IMG/VR virus record: IMGVR_UViG_3300010400_000010
Location: 1 to 52,733 of that record
DNA length: 52,733 nucleotides
Source of the DNA: a virus
Strand: one strand, 5' to 3'
Shown: positions 8,648 through 41,715 of the stretch, one piece after another
Position numbering within the stretch: position 1 is the first letter of the stretch
Layout: the number at the start of each line of letters is the position of its first letter
Notes under the pieces: generated by a model
What the model was told of the DNA's origin: nothing
The model's input: only the letters and a program-made list of their open reading frames with translations
Databases searched by the model: none
Translations under genes and position numbers: made by a program

Positions 8648-9901
8648 ATGCCTAGTTACTACAATCAACCGGCATCTTTCGACAATGCAGTAACGGAAGA
8701 TACCAACAAGTTCGCCCAACTTCCCTTCTATCTCGTCAAAAACGAAGTGAAGGTTTTTCCACGTTGGAATATCTACGATCAACTCTACGGGACGATTGAT
8801 TGGGAACCAAACATGGGTACTACCATGACTGGTATTACTCCTCAGAACTCTCCTGTTGCTGAGGCGTTCTTTGTTCCTAACGAAATCACTTCCGTCCCCA
8901 ACAAGGACGTATATGAAGTTGACAGTGTTTCTCAGAGTGCAACTCTGAAAATGCACCGTTACGAATCCAAACAATTCAACTTCATTCCTTCATTCCAAGC
9001 ATTCTGGAGGGACTACATCAAGTTTGCCGACGGCGACATTGCGCGACAGATCGCAGTCTCCAACAACATGTTCATTCGTACCCAAATGTGGGCACAATCT
9101 CCTTCTGTGTTTATTGCAGGAAGTGGTTTAGTAAGTGCTCCACAGGGTGCAGTCAACAATGCAAACACTGCTGCTGGAAGTAAGAATGTTGCTTACATCC
9201 TTGGTGCATTGATTCCCAACATCAAAACCAATCTTTCTCTTCGGACGTTGTACTCTGCTGCAATGTTCATGAAAGAAGACATTGCGGCCCCTGCTTTCGA
9301 GGGGACGATGAACATGCCTAAGGACAACGAAGGTCTGATGGGTAAGTATGTGATTGTTGGTTCCACAGAAGCTTGGGACAACTTCGCATTCGACAAAGAC
9401 ACCCAGTTGTTGAAGTCAATCAATCTCGACTTGCTGTTCGAGGATTTCCACGGTCTGTTGTTTGGAAAGAACGTCTACAAGTTCGATCCATTCCCCTTGC
9501 GTTTCAAAGCTGACGGCACCGCAACTCCTCCACAAGTTCAAGTTCAAGGAACACTCCGTACCATTCCTAATCCAGACTACGTAAGTATTGCTACCTCTCC
9601 TTACGAAGTTGCTTGGATTCTCGGTGCTGATGCTTACAAAACAATCAAAGTCGGCCCTCCACCCAAGGAATTCGCCACCAAAAACATGTCTGCGAGCAAG
9701 TTCTACTCATTGAAGTGGAATAGTGAAATCCAACTCACAGATCAGGTTCTTATCACCTATGCTGATGGAACTATTGATTTGAATGTTTATGGAACTCAAT
9801 TGAAGTTCATCTCCCAATGCACCCATGGTATTTTGGCCGGTGATCCTCGTTTTGCACTTCCCATCATCTTCCAACGTACTCGCCCTGCTTTGGTAAGCTA
9901 A
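8648..9901 (+). CDS. Major capsid protein
   Basis: The 417-residue protein follows the scaffold and has the mixed alpha/beta, aromatic-rich sequence and size expected for an HK97-fold capsid subunit. It starts MPSYYNQPASFDN and ends RTRPALVS. Codon choice is strongly biased to C-ending codons (AAC, TTC, TAC, CGT), which marks it as the most highly expressed gene of the block. It is driven by P2, and with the next gene is bounded by hairpins at 10480-10549. The fold is inferred from order and style. No motif alone proves it. Confidence 0.88.
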   Translation: MPSYYNQPASFDNAVTEDTNKFAQLPFYLVKNEVKVFPRWNIYDQLYGTIDWEPNMGTTMTGITPQNSPVAEAFFVPNEITSVPNKDVYEVDSVSQSATLKMHRYESKQFNFIPSFQAFWRDYIKFADGDIARQIAVSNNMFIRTQMWAQSPSVFIAGSGLVSAPQGAVNNANTAAGSKNVAYILGALIPNIKTNLSLRTLYSAAMFMKEDIAAPAFEGTMNMPKDNEGLMGKYVIVGSTEAWDNFAFDKDTQLLKSINLDLLFEDFHGLLFGKNVYKFDPFPLRFKADGTATPPQVQVQGTLRTIPNPDYVSIATSPYEVAWILGADAYKTIKVGPPPKEFATKNMSASKFYSLKWNSEIQLTDQVLITYADGTIDLNVYGTQLKFISQCTHGILAGDPRFALPIIFQRTRPALVS

Positions 9902-9945
9902 ACAAAATGATGTTATCCACAGACAAAAACAAAAATAACACCACT

Positions 9946-10470
9946 ATGAAAAACAAATTCATGAAATATCTGGCAATCGCAATGTTGATTGTTGGGCTTG
10001 GAACCGCAGGAAATCTTAAAGCTGCCACTTACTCCACAAATGTGGCCGCTGGACAAATTTCCTTGCTTAGCTTCCAGTCCGGCACCATCTTGTCGTTGAC
10101 AGTTGCAAACACTTCAACAAATATCGCCACATGGTATTTGATTGATGCTCCAACCAACCTCACCACTTGGACTAACGCTGCATATACAAACATCACCTAC
10201 ACTGGTGTTTCAAATATTGTTCTCACTTACACCAATTATTTTGGTGTCGTTACGAGTGTGACCAATCAATATGCAACCTACACCACTAACTCCACCGCAG
10301 CAAACACCAACAACTACAACCAAATCATTGGTGATGTTATTCCAGTTGGTGCAACTCACACGATCAACTATTCCACACTTGGACAAGTGTTCAATAACGG
10401 AATTTTGTTGACCAATAACACCAACGTTACGATCACCATCCAATATCGTAAGTCGTTGATTAACAACTAA
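9946..10470 (+). CDS. Signal-peptide-bearing Asn/Thr-rich protein after the capsid gene
   Basis: The 174-residue protein begins MKNKFMKYLAIAMLIVG, a textbook Sec signal peptide with cleavage predicted after NLKA. An upstream ATG at 9907 would bury the signal, so 9946 is chosen. The mature part is beta-rich and very rich in Asn, Thr and Ser (for example NTSTNIATWYLID). The place directly behind the major capsid gene is where decoration proteins normally sit, but a cytoplasmic capsid protein would not carry an export signal. It may be exported to the cell surface or periplasm, or be a surface fibre. C-ending codons suggest strong expression with the capsid gene. Confidence 0.75.
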   Translation: MKNKFMKYLAIAMLIVGLGTAGNLKAATYSTNVAAGQISLLSFQSGTILSLTVANTSTNIATWYLIDAPTNLTTWTNAAYTNITYTGVSNIVLTYTNYFGVVTSVTNQYATYTTNSTAANTNNYNQIIGDVIPVGATHTINYSTLGQVFNNGILLTNNTNVTITIQYRKSLINN

Positions 10471-10479
10471 ACTATTCGG

Positions 10480-10501
10480 CCCAACAGTTTTCATTGTTGG
10501 G
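10480..10501 (+). promoter_or_regulatory. Hairpin after the capsid operon
   Basis: A perfect 7-base-pair stem CCCAACA/TGTTGGG with an 8-base loop lies 10 bases after the stop of the preceding gene and just before a second hairpin. It may protect the upstream mRNA 3' end or add to termination. Confidence 0.6.
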
Positions 10502-10510
10502 TTGTTGCAG

Positions 10511-10549
10511 GAGTGGGTCGGATTTGTCGGGGATTCGGCCCACTCTTTT
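10511..10549 (+). terminator. Probable intrinsic terminator of the capsid transcription unit
   Basis: GAGTGGG (10511-10517) pairs with CCCACTC (10539-10545), followed directly by TTTT. It follows the hairpin at 10480. Together they would end or attenuate the very strong capsid transcript before the tail genes. Confidence 0.65.
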
Positions 10550-10579
10550 GCAAAACAAAAACTTCAAACTTAATTTCTT

Positions 10580-11008
10580 GTGAGAATTTTTACACTACCA
10601 GCAAAAGACACAATCATTCAGCCTTGTCGAGTTATTTCCATTCCTGCTGCAACCAATGTGTGTATTTATTCTTCCAACGGTGGAACTCCGGGTGTTAATC
10701 CTGCGCAATTTTCAGTATTGTCTCCAACATCTATCGAACAACCTCCTTATAGGAATTTTTTAGTTCAAAACTGTGGAACAGTTCCGTTGAAAATCAAAAT
10801 CAACAAAGGTGTGGTTGGTGCTCCAGGAAGTGCAGACGATTTTCATATCGTTCTCCCCGCTTGTGTTGCAACCGACGACGGCACTTCACAACCAGTAGAT
10901 GTTGCTGGTGATAGTCCAATTGAAATTTGGGTTCGTAACGAAAACGGAGCTACCGCTGGAAGACTTGCTACTTATCGTTCTGGTTCTCAGTTAGATGACA
11001 AAAACTAA
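10580..11008 (+). CDS. Unknown virion-module protein, 142 aa
   Basis: The frame begins with GTG (MRIFTLPAKDTI). No ATG is in a better place. The product is beta-rich with hydrophobic strands alternating with polar loops (FLVQNCGTVPLKIKINKG; IEIWVRNENG) and no signal peptide. It could be a head decoration or head-tail joining protein. Identity is not established. It is the first gene after the capsid terminator. Confidence 0.7.
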   Translation: MRIFTLPAKDTIIQPCRVISIPAATNVCIYSSNGGTPGVNPAQFSVLSPTSIEQPPYRNFLVQNCGTVPLKIKINKGVVGAPGSADDFHIVLPACVATDDGTSQPVDVAGDSPIEIWVRNENGATAGRLATYRSGSQLDDKN

Positions 11009-11013
11009 CTTGT

Positions 11014-11247
11014 ATGACCAAACGGACAGAAAATCTTAGAATTTTCCCTAGAGTGTGTGGTTCTCAACGAGTCACACACTTTCCGGCTTTTGATCCTCCG
11101 TTGTTTGATGATGTTTGGTACAAGAACGGCATTGTTCCTCCTCCAACTCCAACTCCTCCATTTCCTTCTGGTGGAACATTAACAACTGAAGATGGTTTTT
11201 CAATTCAAACCGAAGATGGTCAAGACATCACAACAGAGAATGCTTAA
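11014..11247 (+). CDS. Small Pro/Thr-rich protein, 77 aa
   Basis: The 77-residue protein has a basic N-terminus, a proline run (VPPPTPTPPFPSGG) and a C-terminus made of a degenerate repeat (TTEDGFSI, TEDGQDI, TTENA). It is closely packed between its neighbours. Similar proline-hinged short proteins occur among phage tail components. Function not recognised. Confidence 0.65.
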   Translation: MTKRTENLRIFPRVCGSQRVTHFPAFDPPLFDDVWYKNGIVPPPTPTPPFPSGGTLTTEDGFSIQTEDGQDITTENA

Positions 11248-11250
11248 TAT

Positions 11251-12375
11251 ATGAAACGATTTTTACTTCTATTGATTGGTTTGGTTTGGTGCTTGGATGT
11301 TGGGGCCGCAAGTGTGAAAATAAGTGCTCTGCCTCTAGGAACAACAAACACACTTTACGGTACGAATGTTACCGTAATGGACCTAACACACAACACTACA
11401 AACGATACCTATAGTGTGAACCTTGGCTACCTTGGATCGAATTGGTTTTGGACAAATGTGGTTCTTCAGAACGCTTCTTCAATAAATGGAAATCTCACAG
11501 TAAATGGAAGTGTAAACATGGGAAGTTTTCAAGCTACAAATGCTTCTAATGTGAAAGCATTATTGAGTTTGGATAGTTTGAGAGTTACCAACAGTTCACA
11601 ATTCGATGGTGGAACTCAAACAGTCAATAGTGCCATTGTTCTTAATAGCACTCCACAAATCACCACACTAACGGCCTCTCGTCCACTATACTTGGATGCT
11701 GGTCAAAACATGGCATCTGCGGCCCTAAACGTAACAACTGGAAATGGCATCAGTTTGTTGAATGCTTCCAACGCAGCAGCGCCGATTTTTAAATCCCTAA
11801 CTAATACCGCTTCCACCGGCATCACCGCAACAGATCAAGGAACAAATGTGTTGTTAGCTCTAGCTTCTATTCCAAATACAGCTTTTGCTAACAGTAGTGT
11901 TACAGTAAATGGTACAGCAAACCAAGTTAACACAACCTCTGCTGCTATTGCTTTAGGTGGTAGTGCAACTTTGAGTTTGAGTTCCACACTTGTTGCTCCA
12001 GGTAGTTTAGGTGTAACTGGGCTGACTAGTTTGACCTCAGCCACTAACAATGGTTATTATGCTGGTCTAACATCTACTCTAGCTTATGTTGGTGGAACAA
12101 ACGTCATAGTTGATCTTGCTGTTGCAGATAATTTCTTGCTTACAATGACCAACACAACTTGGATGATCTTCTCCAACATCACCCAAGGCCGAAGTGGATT
12201 TGTTCATATTCTCACCAATGGCACCGCTCAAACCTTGAGTTATGGAGCTTCTAGTGTAAGCCACATTCTAACAAACGCTTCTATCACTGGAATCACTAAC
12301 CAAACTATTTGGGCTTGGAAATCTTCTTTTCACGGCACCAATGTTGCTGTAGTTTCAACCGCAGGGTTTCAATAA
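11251..12375 (+). CDS. Exported tail-fibre-like protein, 374 aa
   Basis: It starts MKRFLLLLIGLVWCL with cleavage likely after VGA or GAA, giving a Sec signal peptide. The mature start VKISALPLGTT is a sequence style common at the head of phage fibre proteins. The rest is repetitive Asn/Thr/Ser-rich beta sequence (NGNLTVNGSVNMGS and similar), as in fibres or long beta-helices. It is transcribed with the tail genes and lies 3 bases after its neighbour. It is probably a surface or receptor-contacting fibre, but the signal peptide implies export before or instead of virion assembly. Confidence 0.72.
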   Translation: MKRFLLLLIGLVWCLDVGAASVKISALPLGTTNTLYGTNVTVMDLTHNTTNDTYSVNLGYLGSNWFWTNVVLQNASSINGNLTVNGSVNMGSFQATNASNVKALLSLDSLRVTNSSQFDGGTQTVNSAIVLNSTPQITTLTASRPLYLDAGQNMASAALNVTTGNGISLLNASNAAAPIFKSLTNTASTGITATDQGTNVLLALASIPNTAFANSSVTVNGTANQVNTTSAAIALGGSATLSLSSTLVAPGSLGVTGLTSLTSATNNGYYAGLTSTLAYVGGTNVIVDLAVADNFLLTMTNTTWMIFSNITQGRSGFVHILTNGTAQTLSYGASSVSHILTNASITGITNQTIWAWKSSFHGTNVAVVSTAGFQ

Positions 12376-12376
12376 C

Positions 12377-13195
12377 ATGAGCAAAATATTCGGATATTTT
12401 CTAGTTCTGTTAATAACATTCACAGCCAGTGGTGGTCCTTCTGGTGTTAGTGGATTCTTTGTTAATCGTCCAGTAGCATCTAGTAGCAGTTTTCCACAAG
12501 CTGCTAGTTTGATTGCTTACTACAAACTAGACGAATCCAGCGGCACTCGTGTAGACCAAACAGCCAATGCACTAGATTTAACAGACAACGGTACAATATC
12601 TGTTGTTGCCGGAAAAATCAACAACGCCGTCAGTAACAATAATTCCTCTTTAATGTACTTATCAAGGAGTTCAAACGCATTATACACTGCAACTGGTGGA
12701 GCTAATTGGTCTATTGGAATGTGGTTAAACATCAACACGGCCTCAGCAGGATATTCTCCAGCTAGTTATTGGAACTGGTCCGGCAACAATGGTGGATGGT
12801 CTTTAGTCACTGGAACAGGAAGCAGCAATGCAAAACTACAACTAAACATCGCTGCAACTTTAGCTTCTGCTGCTGGTGAAAATGCAATTATATCTGGAGC
12901 AGTTCCCTTGAATCAGTGGGTTTATTTTCTCTGGTGCTATGATGGATCACAAGGAAACAACACAAATCGAATTGTTTGTTACACAAACGGTGTCAATGCT
13001 ACATTAACCTTTGCTGGAACACTTCCAGTGGCAATGTTAAAACCTAACGCACAGTTTCAACTTGCCAATTGGACTTCACGAGGTGCATTCGGATTTGCAG
13101 GTAACGTTGATGAAGTTGCAATTTGGGCCGCAACTCTATCCGCTAGTGATGCAACAACCTTATACAATGGTGGGGCCGGAATAACTTATCCTTAA
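12377..13195 (+). CDS. LamG/concanavalin-like protein with signal sequence, 272 aa
   Basis: The N-terminus MSKIFGYFLVLLITFTAS is a probable signal peptide. From about residue 45 the sequence has the LamG jelly-roll pattern: LIAYYKLDESSGTRV at the start, WSIGMWLNI in the middle, LNQWVYFLWCYDG and a closing FAGNVDEVAIWA. Such domains bind glycans or proteins. It is placed among tail fibres, so host-surface binding is likely. It starts 1 base after the preceding stop, which suggests translational coupling. Confidence 0.78.
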   Translation: MSKIFGYFLVLLITFTASGGPSGVSGFFVNRPVASSSSFPQAASLIAYYKLDESSGTRVDQTANALDLTDNGTISVVAGKINNAVSNNNSSLMYLSRSSNALYTATGGANWSIGMWLNINTASAGYSPASYWNWSGNNGGWSLVTGTGSSNAKLQLNIAATLASAAGENAIISGAVPLNQWVYFLWCYDGSQGNNTNRIVCYTNGVNATLTFAGTLPVAMLKPNAQFQLANWTSRGAFGFAGNVDEVAIWAATLSASDATTLYNGGAGITYP

Positions 13196-13196
13196 T

Positions 13197-13508
13197 ATGC
13201 CACCATATCTTGATGAGTTAAACCAAGCAGTTGCTTCTGCAATTGAATCGAATCGTCCAATAGAAGAAGCATACTTTGCCAAATATGGAGTTTATTGCAA
13301 CATTGACTGGAAAGAAATCCCTTTGGTTGTTCCAGGACACATGATCGGTGCAGCAATAAACTACAACGGTGGCTCAGATGGTATTGGAGTTGATGGAGTA
13401 TTTCAATACATCGAAGAAAATGGTAAAACTGTTTGGTTGCGTTCTATTTGCTTTGGTCCATCACAAGACCCTTTGAGGAATTATGATTGGACTTTAAAAC
13501 GTGATTAA
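13197..13508 (+). CDS. Unknown protein, 103 aa, paralogue of the next gene
   Basis: The 103-residue protein has no signal peptide (MPPYLDELNQ). It aligns with the mature part of the next gene product. Shared landmarks in order are AYF, INY, a W-L/T-R pair, GP and a terminal DWT...K. The two are therefore probably a tandem duplication. Function unknown. The frame overlaps by 8 bases a longer reading of the next gene. Confidence 0.7.
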   Translation: MPPYLDELNQAVASAIESNRPIEEAYFAKYGVYCNIDWKEIPLVVPGHMIGAAINYNGGSDGIGVDGVFQYIEENGKTVWLRSICFGPSQDPLRNYDWTLKRD

Positions 13509-13548
13509 AAACTGGGGATCACAAAGGACAACATTATGCAATCTGCAA

Positions 13549-13911
13549 ATGAAGAAACTAATTTTATCAATATTGCTAACAACAGCAATTGTATTTGCAG
13601 CATCAAATGTTCCCAATAAAGCTTTGTTAGATGCAAAAATACTCACAACAACCAACGTTTACTCAGCAGCAGAGATTGCATACTTTAGTATCCACAACGA
13701 ATACAACAAATATCCAACAACCAACATTGATATTGTATTTGGTGGAAGTTTGAGTTTTGCAACCATAAACTATATTGGACCATTCGGAAAAGGTTATCAA
13801 TTTGTTTCAATCTACACCGACACAACAAATGGTATTTGGACACGACTAGATCATATTGGACCAGAAACAAATGACTCTTGCAGACAACAAGATTGGACGT
13901 ATCAAAAATAA
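13549..13911 (+). CDS. Secreted paralogue of the preceding gene, 120 aa
   Basis: The start at ATG 13549 gives MKKLILSILLTTAIVFA, a Sec signal peptide with cleavage before ASNVP. A longer reading from GTG at 13501 would hide it. The mature 100 residues match the preceding protein in the spacing of AYF, INY, WTR, GP and DWT. One copy cytoplasmic and one exported is unusual. Role unknown. Confidence 0.72.
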   Translation: MKKLILSILLTTAIVFAASNVPNKALLDAKILTTTNVYSAAEIAYFSIHNEYNKYPTTNIDIVFGGSLSFATINYIGPFGKGYQFVSIYTDTTNGIWTRLDHIGPETNDSCRQQDWTYQK

Positions 13912-13929
13912 CATAGAAAGGTGGGGAAT

Positions 13930-14160
13930 ATGGGTAAGGAACTTGAAGAACTACAAACACGAATGGCACTAGTTGAAGATCGCTACCAACAGCTTATGAC
14001 AAAACTTGACGAACATTCCAAAGATGACAAAGCCATGTTCAAAGAGTTAAAAGACTCAATAGTGTTGTTGACATCCAAACTCGACGGCCTCACTTGGAAA
14101 GTAGCCATCATGATTGGCACAATCGAAGCTGCTTCAAAATTCATGAACCTTATCAAATAA
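13930..14160 (+). CDS. Coiled-coil protein with C-terminal membrane helix, XhlA-like (lysis candidate)
   Basis: The 76-residue protein has a charged coiled coil (LEELQTRMALVEDRYQQLM) and a C-terminal hydrophobic helix (WKVAIMIGTIEAASKF). This is the plan of XhlA/holin-associated proteins. The ATG at 13930 follows AAAGGTGGGG, one of the few Shine-Dalgarno-like sites here. An in-frame GTG at 13921 is less likely. Followed by a second membrane protein and a lipoprotein, it looks like part of a lysis cassette, although no endolysin is recognised. Confidence 0.6.
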   Translation: MGKELEELQTRMALVEDRYQQLMTKLDEHSKDDKAMFKELKDSIVLLTSKLDGLTWKVAIMIGTIEAASKFMNLIK

Positions 14161-14165
14161 ACCTT

Positions 14166-14474
14166 ATGAGTCTTTTCGTTTCAAGGACAGTAGCAAAAGC
14201 AATGTTGTTGAAAGCAATAGCATTGGAGTTCATGATTGAAAGTTTTGGTTCCCTAGTAACCTGTATCATGGCAGCATTGAGTGGATGTTTATGGAGTGAA
14301 CTTACTCCACAGATGAAATTCACTATGGTGTTGGGAATCACTGCAAATTGGTTAAAGGCTGTTAGTCCTACGATTCAGAAAGGGATTAAGGTAATTGAAC
14401 AGGAAGCAAACGGAAACAACGACACTGGATTTATAAAGAAACCCACAGAACAACAGTTTAACAACATTCCATAA
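14166..14474 (+). CDS. Holin-like membrane protein, 102 aa
   Basis: From ATG 14166 the protein has a probable amphipathic start, a hydrophobic segment (ESFGSLVTCIMAALSGCLW), a second weaker one (FTMVLGITANWLKAV) and a polar C-terminal tail. Size and topology fit a small holin. Position between the XhlA-like protein and a lipoprotein supports that. A structural membrane protein remains possible. Confidence 0.55.
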   Translation: MSLFVSRTVAKAMLLKAIALEFMIESFGSLVTCIMAALSGCLWSELTPQMKFTMVLGITANWLKAVSPTIQKGIKVIEQEANGNNDTGFIKKPTEQQFNNIP

Positions 14475-14480
14475 CATTCT

Positions 14481-14786
14481 ATGAAAACTCCTGTTACGAC
14501 TCTAATCTTTGCAATCCTCCTCACTGTTGGTTGTGCTCACTTCAACTATTCTGCGAATGAAACAAAACCCGATGGAACAGAAATTGCAACCAAAGTTAAA
14601 GCATTCACATTTTTTGATAGTAAGTCTGAGTTGTCAAAACTCAAAACTTCTACAACAGATAAAACTCAGTCTCTTGGAATCGGAACACTTAATCAAGAAG
14701 CTGAAGGAAGTAATGCAGTAAATATTGTAAACTCTGTTGTAAGTGCAGCAGTCACCGCTGCTATCAAATCCACAGTCAAACCCTAA
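14481..14786 (+). CDS. Phage lipoprotein (possible outer spanin)
   Basis: The 101-residue protein starts with a lipoprotein signal (FAILLTVGC, lipobox Cys18), so it should be acylated and anchored in the envelope. The mature part is polar and ends in a hydrophobic, Val/Ala-rich stretch (NIVNSVVSAAVTAAIK). Lipoproteins next to holins are often outer spanins (Rz1) that fuse the membranes at lysis, but this one is not Pro-rich as Rz1 is. A superinfection-exclusion lipoprotein is the alternative. Confidence 0.65.
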   Translation: MKTPVTTLIFAILLTVGCAHFNYSANETKPDGTEIATKVKAFTFFDSKSELSKLKTSTTDKTQSLGIGTLNQEAEGSNAVNIVNSVVSAAVTAAIKSTVKP

Positions 14787-14795
14787 ACATCAGTT

Positions 14796-16049
14796 GTGCC
14801 CACATCTTCTCCAATACTAACCAACACCAACTGGTTACAGTTTACTTACGCATATCCTATCAGAAAGCTGAGAGGATATGTGGAGTTACCTGTTTTCTCC
14901 TACAACACAACTTGGTATGGAGCAAGTGTGGAGGTTACACAATTCAACTTTTCTTCAACGGATGTTTTTACTTTGCGAAGACTTCCTACAGTTCCGAGTG
15001 GAGTTAACTTTTTGTTGTGCTTGAAATGGCGAAACGGTAGTGTGGTGACGAGGTATAAGTTGTGGGAAAATGTTGGTGAGGTTCTCAACGTGCCGTTGTA
15101 TGGTGGTCAGATTATACCAAAGAATTTTGTTCTAGAAGTTTGGAATTTAGAAAATGGAACAGTCGTAAGTAATGCGAGTGTGGTGAAAATCTTCTCCAGT
15201 CTTACGCAAGTTCCAGACAATTATCAAATTCCTTTGGTGGATTTCATTCTAGCTGATGGAGTTGAATGTAATAACCTAAACGGAGTTGCTGTTCAGGGAA
15301 CGCCGTTGGACCTAACCAATATTGTTGCTAGATATGCTGGAGCAACATTAGTTCCATCTGGTAACTATGCCAACACATTCAACGAATGGATCGACGTTAG
15401 TGGAAGTGCGTTTGGTGCGGCCCCATTTGCAACCGGACTCGACATCCATCATCAACCTCAAGTGCTTCTTCCTGCTGCAAACTGTACGAGAAATTTTGTA
15501 AGGTTTAGTTTTGATGGAACTGATAGAAGTTTTCTATGTGGTTCTAGCTTTGATTATCCAATTACTGTTTATATTGTGATGAGATTTAGTGGAAACTCCA
15601 ATCCACAAGATTTCTTTCGTTCCAACATAAATGGTATAAAACTTTCAAGATTCTTCACTGGTCTTGGAACAGCAATATCAGCGTCACCTGATGCCGGTGG
15701 AGCTACTTTACAATCTCAAATTGTTCCTATTGGAACTTTCTTTATTGTAAAAGCCACATGGATAAATGGGACTCATCGTTTAAGAGTTGCTAATGGAGCT
15801 GATCTTTCTGGAAATAATACTGCTGGAAGTTCAACAGCTATTGGAAGTCCTTCTATTGGAGCAGATGGAGGAATAGTTGCATGTGAAGCTGAGTTTGCTG
15901 AAATTTTGATTTACAATGAAAATATAGTTGCAGGTGGCACAAAGGATGCTCAGATAATGGCATACCTCACAGCTTTATATTTAGGTGGTAATTTCCAAGA
16001 GATAGTAATGACCTACGATACTGGTGTAGCTTGGTTGGATAATCCTTAA
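14796..16049 (+). CDS. LamG-like tail/receptor-binding protein, 417 aa
   Basis: The frame begins with GTG (MPTSSPILTNTNW). The N-terminal 150 residues form a beta-rich domain. The C-terminal half resembles a LamG jelly roll (FVRFSFDGTDRSFLCG, ITVYIVMRFSG, FFIVKATWINGTHRLRVANG and the closing CEAEFAEILIYNE). It probably binds a surface glycan as a receptor-binding or adhesion protein. It lacks a signal peptide, unlike several neighbours. A sigma-54-type site (15934-15950) lies inside its 3' end. Confidence 0.7.
   Translation: MPTSSPILTNTNWLQFTYAYPIRKLRGYVELPVFSYNTTWYGASVEVTQFNFSSTDVFTLRRLPTVPSGVNFLLCLKWRNGSVVTRYKLWENVGEVLNVPLYGGQIIPKNFVLEVWNLENGTVVSNASVVKIFSSLTQVPDNYQIPLVDFILADGVECNNLNGVAVQGTPLDLTNIVARYAGATLVPSGNYANTFNEWIDVSGSAFGAAPFATGLDIHHQPQVLLPAANCTRNFVRFSFDGTDRSFLCGSSFDYPITVYIVMRFSGNSNPQDFFRSNINGIKLSRFFTGLGTAISASPDAGGATLQSQIVPIGTFFIVKATWINGTHRLRVANGADLSGNNTAGSSTAIGSPSIGADGGIVACEAEFAEILIYNENIVAGGTKDAQIMAYLTALYLGGNFQEIVMTYDTGVAWLDNP
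15934..15950 (+). promoter_or_regulatory. Sigma-54-type site inside the preceding gene, before the tail-fibre gene
   Basis: GTGGCACAAAGGATGCT fits TGGCAY-N6-TGCT exactly with correct spacing and is in the direction of transcription. The next start codon is at 16058, giving a leader of about 97 bases, similar to the intergenic sites. Being inside codons it could be chance. Confidence 0.5.
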
Positions 16050-16057
16050 ACAATAAT

Positions 16058-17191
16058 ATGAAAAAACTCTTAGCTTTGATTTTCTTGATCTCCTTGTCTT
16101 CCCAAGGGGCCGACACAGATTTGAGAAAAGGAATTGATCTTACTGGAATGAGTAGTTTTCCAGGAACAGCCTTGAATCAACTTGTAGACAACGGCACCAT
16201 AGCCACAAACAAGGCTCTTGGAATAATTTCTCCAACGGCCCCAGATGCAAGTGGCAATCCACGCTACACTAATTGGTTTTGGATGGATGTTAGTTCTGAT
16301 CCACCAGTGATGAAAACCTATAGCAAGAATCTTGCCAATTGGTTTGGAATCGGTGTTGGTCCCAACAGTGTAGGTACGGCCCAACTAATTGATGGAAGTG
16401 TTACTACAGCCAAGATTGCTGTTGGAGCAGTTGATAGTACAAGACTTGCAAACAATGCTGTTGGAACAGCTAATCTTCAAATCGGAAGTGTTAGTTCTAC
16501 CAACATCCAAGGTGGTGGAGTAACAGGTTTCAACATCCAAACCAACTCCATCGACACCACAAAACTTGGAGCCTCTAGTGTTGATCGAACAAATCTTGCT
16601 CCAAATGCAGTAACTTCAACCAACATTGCAGCTAATAGTATTTACTCAACCAACATTGTTGCTGGACAAGTGTTTGGAACAAATATTGCGTTGAATACAA
16701 TCACATCAACAAATATTGGTAGTGGAGCTTTGTATGGAACAAACATGGTGAATAACACCATTGGAACCAACCAAGTCATAGCCTTAACAGCTATGAACAC
16801 AACAAACAATTATGGAATAGTTGTTTACACTTTGGTATCACTTACAAACGCTGCTCCAGCATTAACAACCAATTCAAGTTCTACAATCACGTTCACTCAT
16901 CAATTCGGTGTGATGCCGTTAGGATATAGGGTGGTGTATGTTTGTGTCTCTGCTGCTGGAGATAATGGATATGCTCAAGGTGATGAAATAGATGCGCTGA
17001 GTGCAGATGGAACTAATGCCGGTGGTTCCACAACACAACGAGCACAAACCATATATGCAAACTCTACTTCAGTTTTTGTTGTTACTTCTTCGGCCTCCTC
17101 AGCTTTTGTAGGAAACAAAGCAACAGGAGTTGGAGCATTGTTAAACACAACCAAATGGGTTTACAAATGCTATGCTTGGACTGTAAAATAA
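16058..17191 (+). CDS. Exported tail-fibre-like protein with repeats, 377 aa
   Basis: It begins MKKLLALIFLISLSSQGAD, a Sec signal peptide. The middle (about residues 108-250) is a run of 10-11-residue repeats of the type GSVTTAKIAVGAV, NNAVGTANLQIGSV and NTITSTNIGSGAL, typical of phage fibre shafts. The C-terminal about 120 residues (starting FTHQFGVMPLGYRVVYVC) form a distinct head domain that probably contacts the receptor. A sigma-54-type site lies 108 bases upstream. Confidence 0.75.
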   Translation: MKKLLALIFLISLSSQGADTDLRKGIDLTGMSSFPGTALNQLVDNGTIATNKALGIISPTAPDASGNPRYTNWFWMDVSSDPPVMKTYSKNLANWFGIGVGPNSVGTAQLIDGSVTTAKIAVGAVDSTRLANNAVGTANLQIGSVSSTNIQGGGVTGFNIQTNSIDTTKLGASSVDRTNLAPNAVTSTNIAANSIYSTNIVAGQVFGTNIALNTITSTNIGSGALYGTNMVNNTIGTNQVIALTAMNTTNNYGIVVYTLVSLTNAAPALTTNSSSTITFTHQFGVMPLGYRVVYVCVSAAGDNGYAQGDEIDALSADGTNAGGSTTQRAQTIYANSTSVFVVTSSASSAFVGNKATGVGALLNTTKWVYKCYAWTVK

Positions 17192-41364: not shown

Positions 41365-41715
41365 TTAAATGTTAGCGTAGTCTTTTAGATTGTAACCACG
41401 CTGGAATTCTTCTACATCAAAATGGTTTTTTGGATTGGGGCCGACAACTAGAAGTTCACAAACATCTTTGTTTTTTGGATTAAGAATTGATCGTTTCATC
41501 CAATAATGATTATCAATTTCTTTTTCTGGTCCACTAAATTCTCCAGTTACTAGATCAAATTCTCTGATAGTAAGTTTGTGACATCCAGCATACATCCATT
41601 TAGGACGAACAATCTTCTTCTCAACTTTCCAAACTCGTCCAGCAGAAGGAAGAATTGTAAATCCTGCTGTTGCAACTAGAAGAGAACCTAGAAAATTACG
41701 ACGAGATGAGATCAT
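41365..41715 (-). CDS. Protein with twin-arginine (Tat) signal peptide, 116 aa
   Basis: The N-terminus MISSRRNFLGSLLVATAGF carries the Tat motif S-R-R-x-F-L followed by a moderately hydrophobic core and a possible cleavage after PSA. The mature part (about 90 residues) has basic beta-rich sequence (KIVRPKWMYAGCHKLTIREF) and LLVVGPNPKN, with no cofactor motif. Tat substrates are exported folded. A phage gene with such a signal is unusual. It could be captured from the host or act on the periplasm during infection. A hairpin (41729-41752) lies just upstream. Confidence 0.75.
   Translation of the reverse strand: MISSRRNFLGSLLVATAGFTILPSAGRVWKVEKKIVRPKWMYAGCHKLTIREFDLVTGEFSGPEKEIDNHYWMKRSILNPKNKDVCELLVVGPNPKNHFDVEEFQRGYNLKDYANI

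Follow-up and report, generated by a model that had tools for sequence, protein, structure and literature searches.

Sec signals on capsid-adjacent and fibre-like proteins of a podovirus-like phage family: possible attachment to virions after lysis

To our knowledge, tailed-phage fibres are put together in the cytoplasm wherever their assembly has been worked out. Podovirus-like uncultured phages share a conserved late module in which fibre-, lectin- and jelly-roll-type proteins appear to be made with cleavable Sec signals, and this raises the question of where these proteins go and whether any of them reaches the virion. We addressed this in a 52.7 kb virus record, analysed over all of its 52,733 nt (the window), and in related loci, which are cited by L numbers. 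The boldest reading, which we hold tentatively and place somewhat below an even chance, is that in one tailed-phage family the virion is partly completed beyond the cytoplasm: the host Sec system would export capsid-adjacent and fibre proteins, which would be cleaved and would join the tailed particles only once the cell has lysed, and one fibre gene would have gained or lost its signal repeatedly.

Signalled genes between the capsid and tail-tube genes

The gene content of the window is podovirus-like, with terminase-like and portal-like genes, a capsid gene, two tail-tube-like genes and one gene for a 2011-residue protein; several of these names are based on position and relatives rather than on family matches. 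The major capsid protein (8648..9901, + strand, as are all window features below unless marked) served as the anchor for finding relatives. The name is based on its place behind the portal and scaffold-like genes and on its conservation, which runs end to end in relatives at 50–63% identity; the protein carries no signal.

N-termini were scored with a home-made script on n-, h- and c-regions, with a threshold of 4.5. The preliminary description had assigned Sec signals to five genes and a lipobox to a sixth, and each was recovered where it had been placed, with scores of 5.4–6.6. SP1, the capsid-adjacent protein (9946..10470, 174 aa), scores 5.5; its signal, at about 9946–10023, ends between GNLKA and ATYS and precedes a jelly-roll-like mature domain. 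It is followed by a fibre-like protein (11251..12375, 374 aa, score 6.0; signal about 11251–11307, site between CLDVGA and ASVKISALP) and a LamG/concanavalin-like protein (12377..13195, 272 aa, score 5.8; signal about 12377–12433). The latter matches Laminin_G_3 (PF13385, E 5.4e-8, 33.6 bits against a curated cut-off of 27.6) and has a weak cleavage site, TASG followed by G. A 120 aa protein (13549..13911) scores 6.6, with a signal at about 13549–13599 (site between IVFA and ASN), and the lipoprotein at 14481..14786 scores 6.5, with a signal at 14481–14531 and the lipobox LLTVG before the invariant Cys. The last of the six is a tail-fibre protein (16058..17191, score 5.4), in which a Sec signal (16058–16108, site between SLSSQG and ADTD) stands before a conserved N-terminal domain. 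The traits of Sec/SPase I substrates are present: positive n-regions, hydrophobic cores, small residues at −3/−1 and no later transmembrane segment. Since the mature parts of all six proteins lack any transmembrane-type hydrophobic stretch, the signalled proteins other than the lipoprotein should be soluble once exported.

When the first 30 residues were shuffled 2000 times per gene, the observed score was reached 18 times for 9946, 58 times for 11251, 9 times for 12377, once each for 13549 and 16058, and never for 14481; full shuffles of N-termini passed the threshold in 25 of 2289 cases (1.1%). All six signalled genes lie within a single block running from the capsid gene to the tail-tube genes, where 6/14 genes are above threshold versus 2/55 elsewhere in the window (p = 6e-4). 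The same script picked out 4/75 genes in lambda (including lom, Rz and bor), 1/43 in T7 and 3/77 in Cellulophaga phage phi38:1. Among phages of Verrucomicrobia, Akkermansia phages Chantilly (0/41) and Chambord (2/38) also differ from the block of the window.

The block genes without a signal are 10580, 11014, 13197, the small genes near 13921 and 14166, and 14796. A small coiled-coil protein with a hydrophobic C-terminus (13921..14160) is probably lysis-related, judging from its sequence and a weak match to phrog_1193 'hemolysin' (E 5e-4). Its small hydrophobic neighbour (14166..14474) gave no match in a family search and looks holin-like by eye. Together with the lipoprotein, the small membrane-type proteins look like lysis/envelope genes interleaved with fibres. 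The fibre-like protein at 14796..16049 lacks a signal, as do its near-clade homologues, and could be the true adsorption fibre. Two adjoining genes are paralogues, 13197..13508 and the 120 aa protein at 13549 (30% identity over 97 aa, E 6e-7 as a single comparison), and only 13549 is signalled.

Lipoproteins occupy the 14481 slot in relatives as well (for example L006:15170, L021:14924 and L017:15335). In other loci the slot holds signalled proteins of about 180 aa (L002:15576-16130, L003:15717-16262, L007:16014-16535 and L015:16056-16625), with alternating C-termini that end in F or L (YKF, IRL, FTF, WRF) and look by eye like those of outer-membrane barrels.

Conservation across related loci

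A capsid-alignment search yielded 39 related loci, in which 74/266 genes after the capsid gene are signalled, versus 2/294 before it (Fisher p 2.6e-24). In groups defined by capsid identity, 63/177 non-redundant genes are signalled in the near group (about 46–64%), against 1/51 in the far group (about 40–44%), which keeps the gene order and lacks both SP1 and signalled fibres. A second set of loci, collected by a tail-tube gene search, gave 51/196 signalled genes upstream of the tail-tube gene and 2/123 after it; the contrast between clades draws on the capsid-defined groups and not on a by-eye division of this second set.

The Sec-signalled proteins of relatives match LamG-like lectin, collagen, GDSL esterase/lipase, melibiase and InlB-like repeat families, an endosialidase N-terminal extension and several tail-fibre/tailspike PHROGs. 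No C-terminal sorting domain was found among the Pfam matches of 64 signalled proteins at E 0.001, a search that a weak or novel sorter could escape. Mature signalled proteins have a median N+T content of 24% and 6% charged residues, compared with 16% and 15% for unsignalled proteins of more than 100 residues in the same region (p ~1e-17), and their Cys content is lower than that of the unsignalled proteins. Such a composition would be the expected outcome of a long life outside the cytoplasm, though fibres generally lean that way; unsignalled relatives of the 16058 protein have 19% N+T and 8% charged residues.

In signalled near-clade fibres (e.g. L007:12319, L014:7176 and L015:12310) a short motif after the cleavage site is followed by a Gly-rich linker (GGLVSPTISANGG), and this motif could be a docking peptide. 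By eye, these mature N-termini (GGLVSPTISANGG) seemed to match those of large signal-less fibres (MARIVQQGVITTSG), a resemblance we set aside as too short.

In 22 near loci the gene immediately behind the capsid gene encodes a protein of the SP1 type, about 165 aa long; 21 of the 22 score above threshold, the last at 4.1. Sequence divergence among them is wide, despite which A or G occupies position −1 in 18/18 hand-placed cleavage sites. More distant loci also carry SP1 (L078, L084, L095, L111, L120 and L125) or lack it (L104 and L119). The AlphaFold model of SP1 is a jelly-roll (pLDDT 79), for which structure comparison gave a best Z of 8.2, many unrelated rows and a cyanophage Pam1 capsid chain at Z 6.5; no specific structural relative was found in these searches, and the SP1 alignment is too variable to support a pattern search.

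The small capsid-adjacent protein at 10580..11008 has no signal and a jelly-roll/cupin-like model (pLDDT 82.5). It is conserved in two clades, one with SP1 and one without, and from its position and predicted fold it is probably a capsid decoration protein. We considered SP1 as an exported paralogue of this protein and rejected the idea, as hhalign against the 10580 family gave a probability of 0.2%. Because there is no sequence relation between the two, SP1 cannot be called a decoration protein; their common Foldseek neighbours (A0A346A607, A0A386KKK9, A0A6J5NA36 and A0A6J5LK49) reflect a fold too common to count.

One further capsid-related ORF was noted. In L003:3053-3349, a 98 aa ORF between terminase-like genes, a leader of the export type (Tat-like) is fused to a segment that shares homology with the capsid protein's N-terminal part (52% identity over 60 aa, E 4e-18), an arrangement not seen in the other loci searched.

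A tail fibre with and without a signal

The 16058 protein matches PHROG 892 (tail fiber, E 1.8e-16) in its repeat region. Its N-terminal domain, detected in a single copy in the window record (HMM E 2e-25), occurs in 44 loci at a conserved genomic place, just upstream of the tail-tube genes; searching with the 16058 protein by itself turned up no close relatives. In 36 of the 44 loci no more than a few residues of the protein come before the domain, and in the other eight (the window, L078, L093, L095, L100, L104, L105 and L111) a signal directly precedes it. The same virion-type fibre thus occurs in two forms, one bearing an export signal and one lacking it. The well-supported branches of the tail-tube tree demand at least three changes of signal state in this family. 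The signal of 16058 ends just before the point at which its signal-less relatives begin, and cleavage would leave nearly their N-terminus. In their match to tail-fibre profiles and in the conserved place of the domain, these proteins resemble known podovirus tail fibres and tailspikes (PHROG 892 and others); they are unlike them in the predicted cleavable Sec signal before the domain in 8/44 loci.

L043:12766-14055, a protein of the 14796 type, was considered as a second signalled fibre. The case is ambiguous: a hydrophobic stretch extends its N-terminus, but its relatives start at a position matched by an internal ATG, and the extension may be untranslated.

Possible fates of the signalled proteins

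Sequence evidence underlies the predicted signals, the way they cluster and are conserved, and the fusion of one of them to a fibre domain that is unsignalled in relatives; export of the signalled block proteins is well supported at that level. We propose that these proteins would leave the cytoplasm late in infection, lose their signals to signal peptidase I, stay soluble in the periplasm and be set free together with progeny at lysis, and that at least 16058 would then dock on virions via its N-terminal domain, the N-terminus of which cleavage would have recreated. The step from export to docking is taken because that domain is retained. We give the whole sequence of events, through to docking of at least 16058, just under an even chance; actual export, periplasmic holding and post-lysis docking are what we infer. 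Release at lysis followed by virion joining, one of the outcomes offered in the preliminary description, fits best and most clearly for 16058, with the sequences supporting its export part and the docking part conjectural. Display on the cell envelope, another of those outcomes, is not favoured for the five Sec proteins, whose mature parts have neither a transmembrane-like stretch nor a sorting domain among the Pfam matches; 14481 alone has a lipid anchor.

The strongest rival, which we rate only a little lower, is that the proteins are exported and cleaved but never enter virions, acting instead in the envelope or outside the dying cell. They might bind or degrade glycans and so clear surface polymers at release, or form coats that hinder re-adsorption or superinfection. 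On this view the module would resemble lambda lom and bor, as a late cassette for the envelope that has grown by capturing genes for secreted proteins of the host. Secreted host proteins commonly contain LamG, melibiase, GDSL lipase and InlB-like repeats, all of them among the families matched. In relatives the block also includes lipoproteins and proteins whose C-termini look barrel-like (L002:15576 and L015:16056), and both lom, in the lambda tail region, and bor, elsewhere, were picked up by our script. This account offers no ready reason, however, why the N-terminal domain of 16058 should be kept behind a signal in eight loci when 36 make it signal-less, or why the window yielded the domain in a single copy.

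That the hydrophobic N-termini stay uncleaved, as membrane or virion anchors or as aids to DNA entry, is improbable. A hydrophobic N-terminus alone cannot separate a signal from an anchor, and the cleavage site of 12377 is weak, but the A or G at −1 in all 18 hand-placed SP1 sites, the end of the 16058 signal just short of the N-terminus of signal-less relatives, and a mature-part composition of the exported type all tell against this option, which the preliminary description had raised. Wrong start codons or chance hydrophobic N-termini are very improbable, even though the score is home-made, 9946 and 13549 are internal ATGs of ORFs that open at 9907 and 13501, and the L043:12766 extension is ambiguous, given the low chance rate in shuffles, the extreme clustering, the recurrence of signals in many divergent phages, and a 16058 ATG that lies 8 nt after the previous gene behind a leader resembling those of other genes, which show no Shine-Dalgarno motif.

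Among known systems, lambda Lom and Bor are likewise Sec-signalled envelope proteins of a tailed phage, with lom within the tail region, and 14481 is a protein of a kind with Bor. Neither of the two lambda proteins is a fibre, whereas the block of the window holds signalled fibre- and lectin-like proteins and one true tail-fibre family. The coat proteins of filamentous phages (Inoviridae) are Sec-signalled, cleaved virion proteins, and those phages assemble in the inner membrane; the window phage differs in having terminase, portal, icosahedral capsid and tail-tube genes. In the papers we found, signal peptides count as unusual for tailed-phage proteins: one survey took their absence as support for a phage origin of diversified target proteins (PMC6199706), no protein of Verrucomicrobia phage P8625 had a detected signal peptide (PMC4642752), and one or two were reported for rumen Bacteroides phages (PMC5723332). 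A literature search that covered subscription journals in part found no description of Sec-signalled tailed-phage fibres. If a large family of environmental phages does send fibre- and lectin-type proteins through Sec, then either tailed virions go through a maturation step after lysis or the phages supply a class of secreted adhesins and glycan-active proteins at lysis. The 16058 family, with and without a signal, and the 13197/13549 pair render the export idea directly testable. The signals also serve as a warning that a signal peptide is poor evidence against the phage origin of a fibre-like gene.

The hosts of the family are inferred to be diderm. Within cultured phages, the terminase is most similar to that of Akkermansia phages (about 30% identity), which points weakly to a verrucomicrobial host; DNA polymerase matches were scattered. 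Neither the capsid nor the tail-tube proteins had a match among 50,697 phage records, and no cultured phage matched either of them. A genome scan for the host returned two MAG contigs from different domains and was uninformative. These contigs, L042 and L043, carry capsid relatives and are binned to Deltaproteobacteria and Methanoregulaceae, assignments that are probably binning contamination; in both, a signalled protein follows the capsid gene.

Upstream of the start codons of the predicted late genes of the window (2272-24759), Shine-Dalgarno-like motifs are absent and the leaders are A/T-rich. Finally, twin-arginine-like leaders were seen at L125:3476-4216, in the window at 41365-41715 (− strand) and at L002:5532 (MKRRKFLRSFGLAASG, MISSRRNFLGSLLVATAG, MTRRDLFKFLPAG), which suggests Tat export of phage proteins besides Sec.
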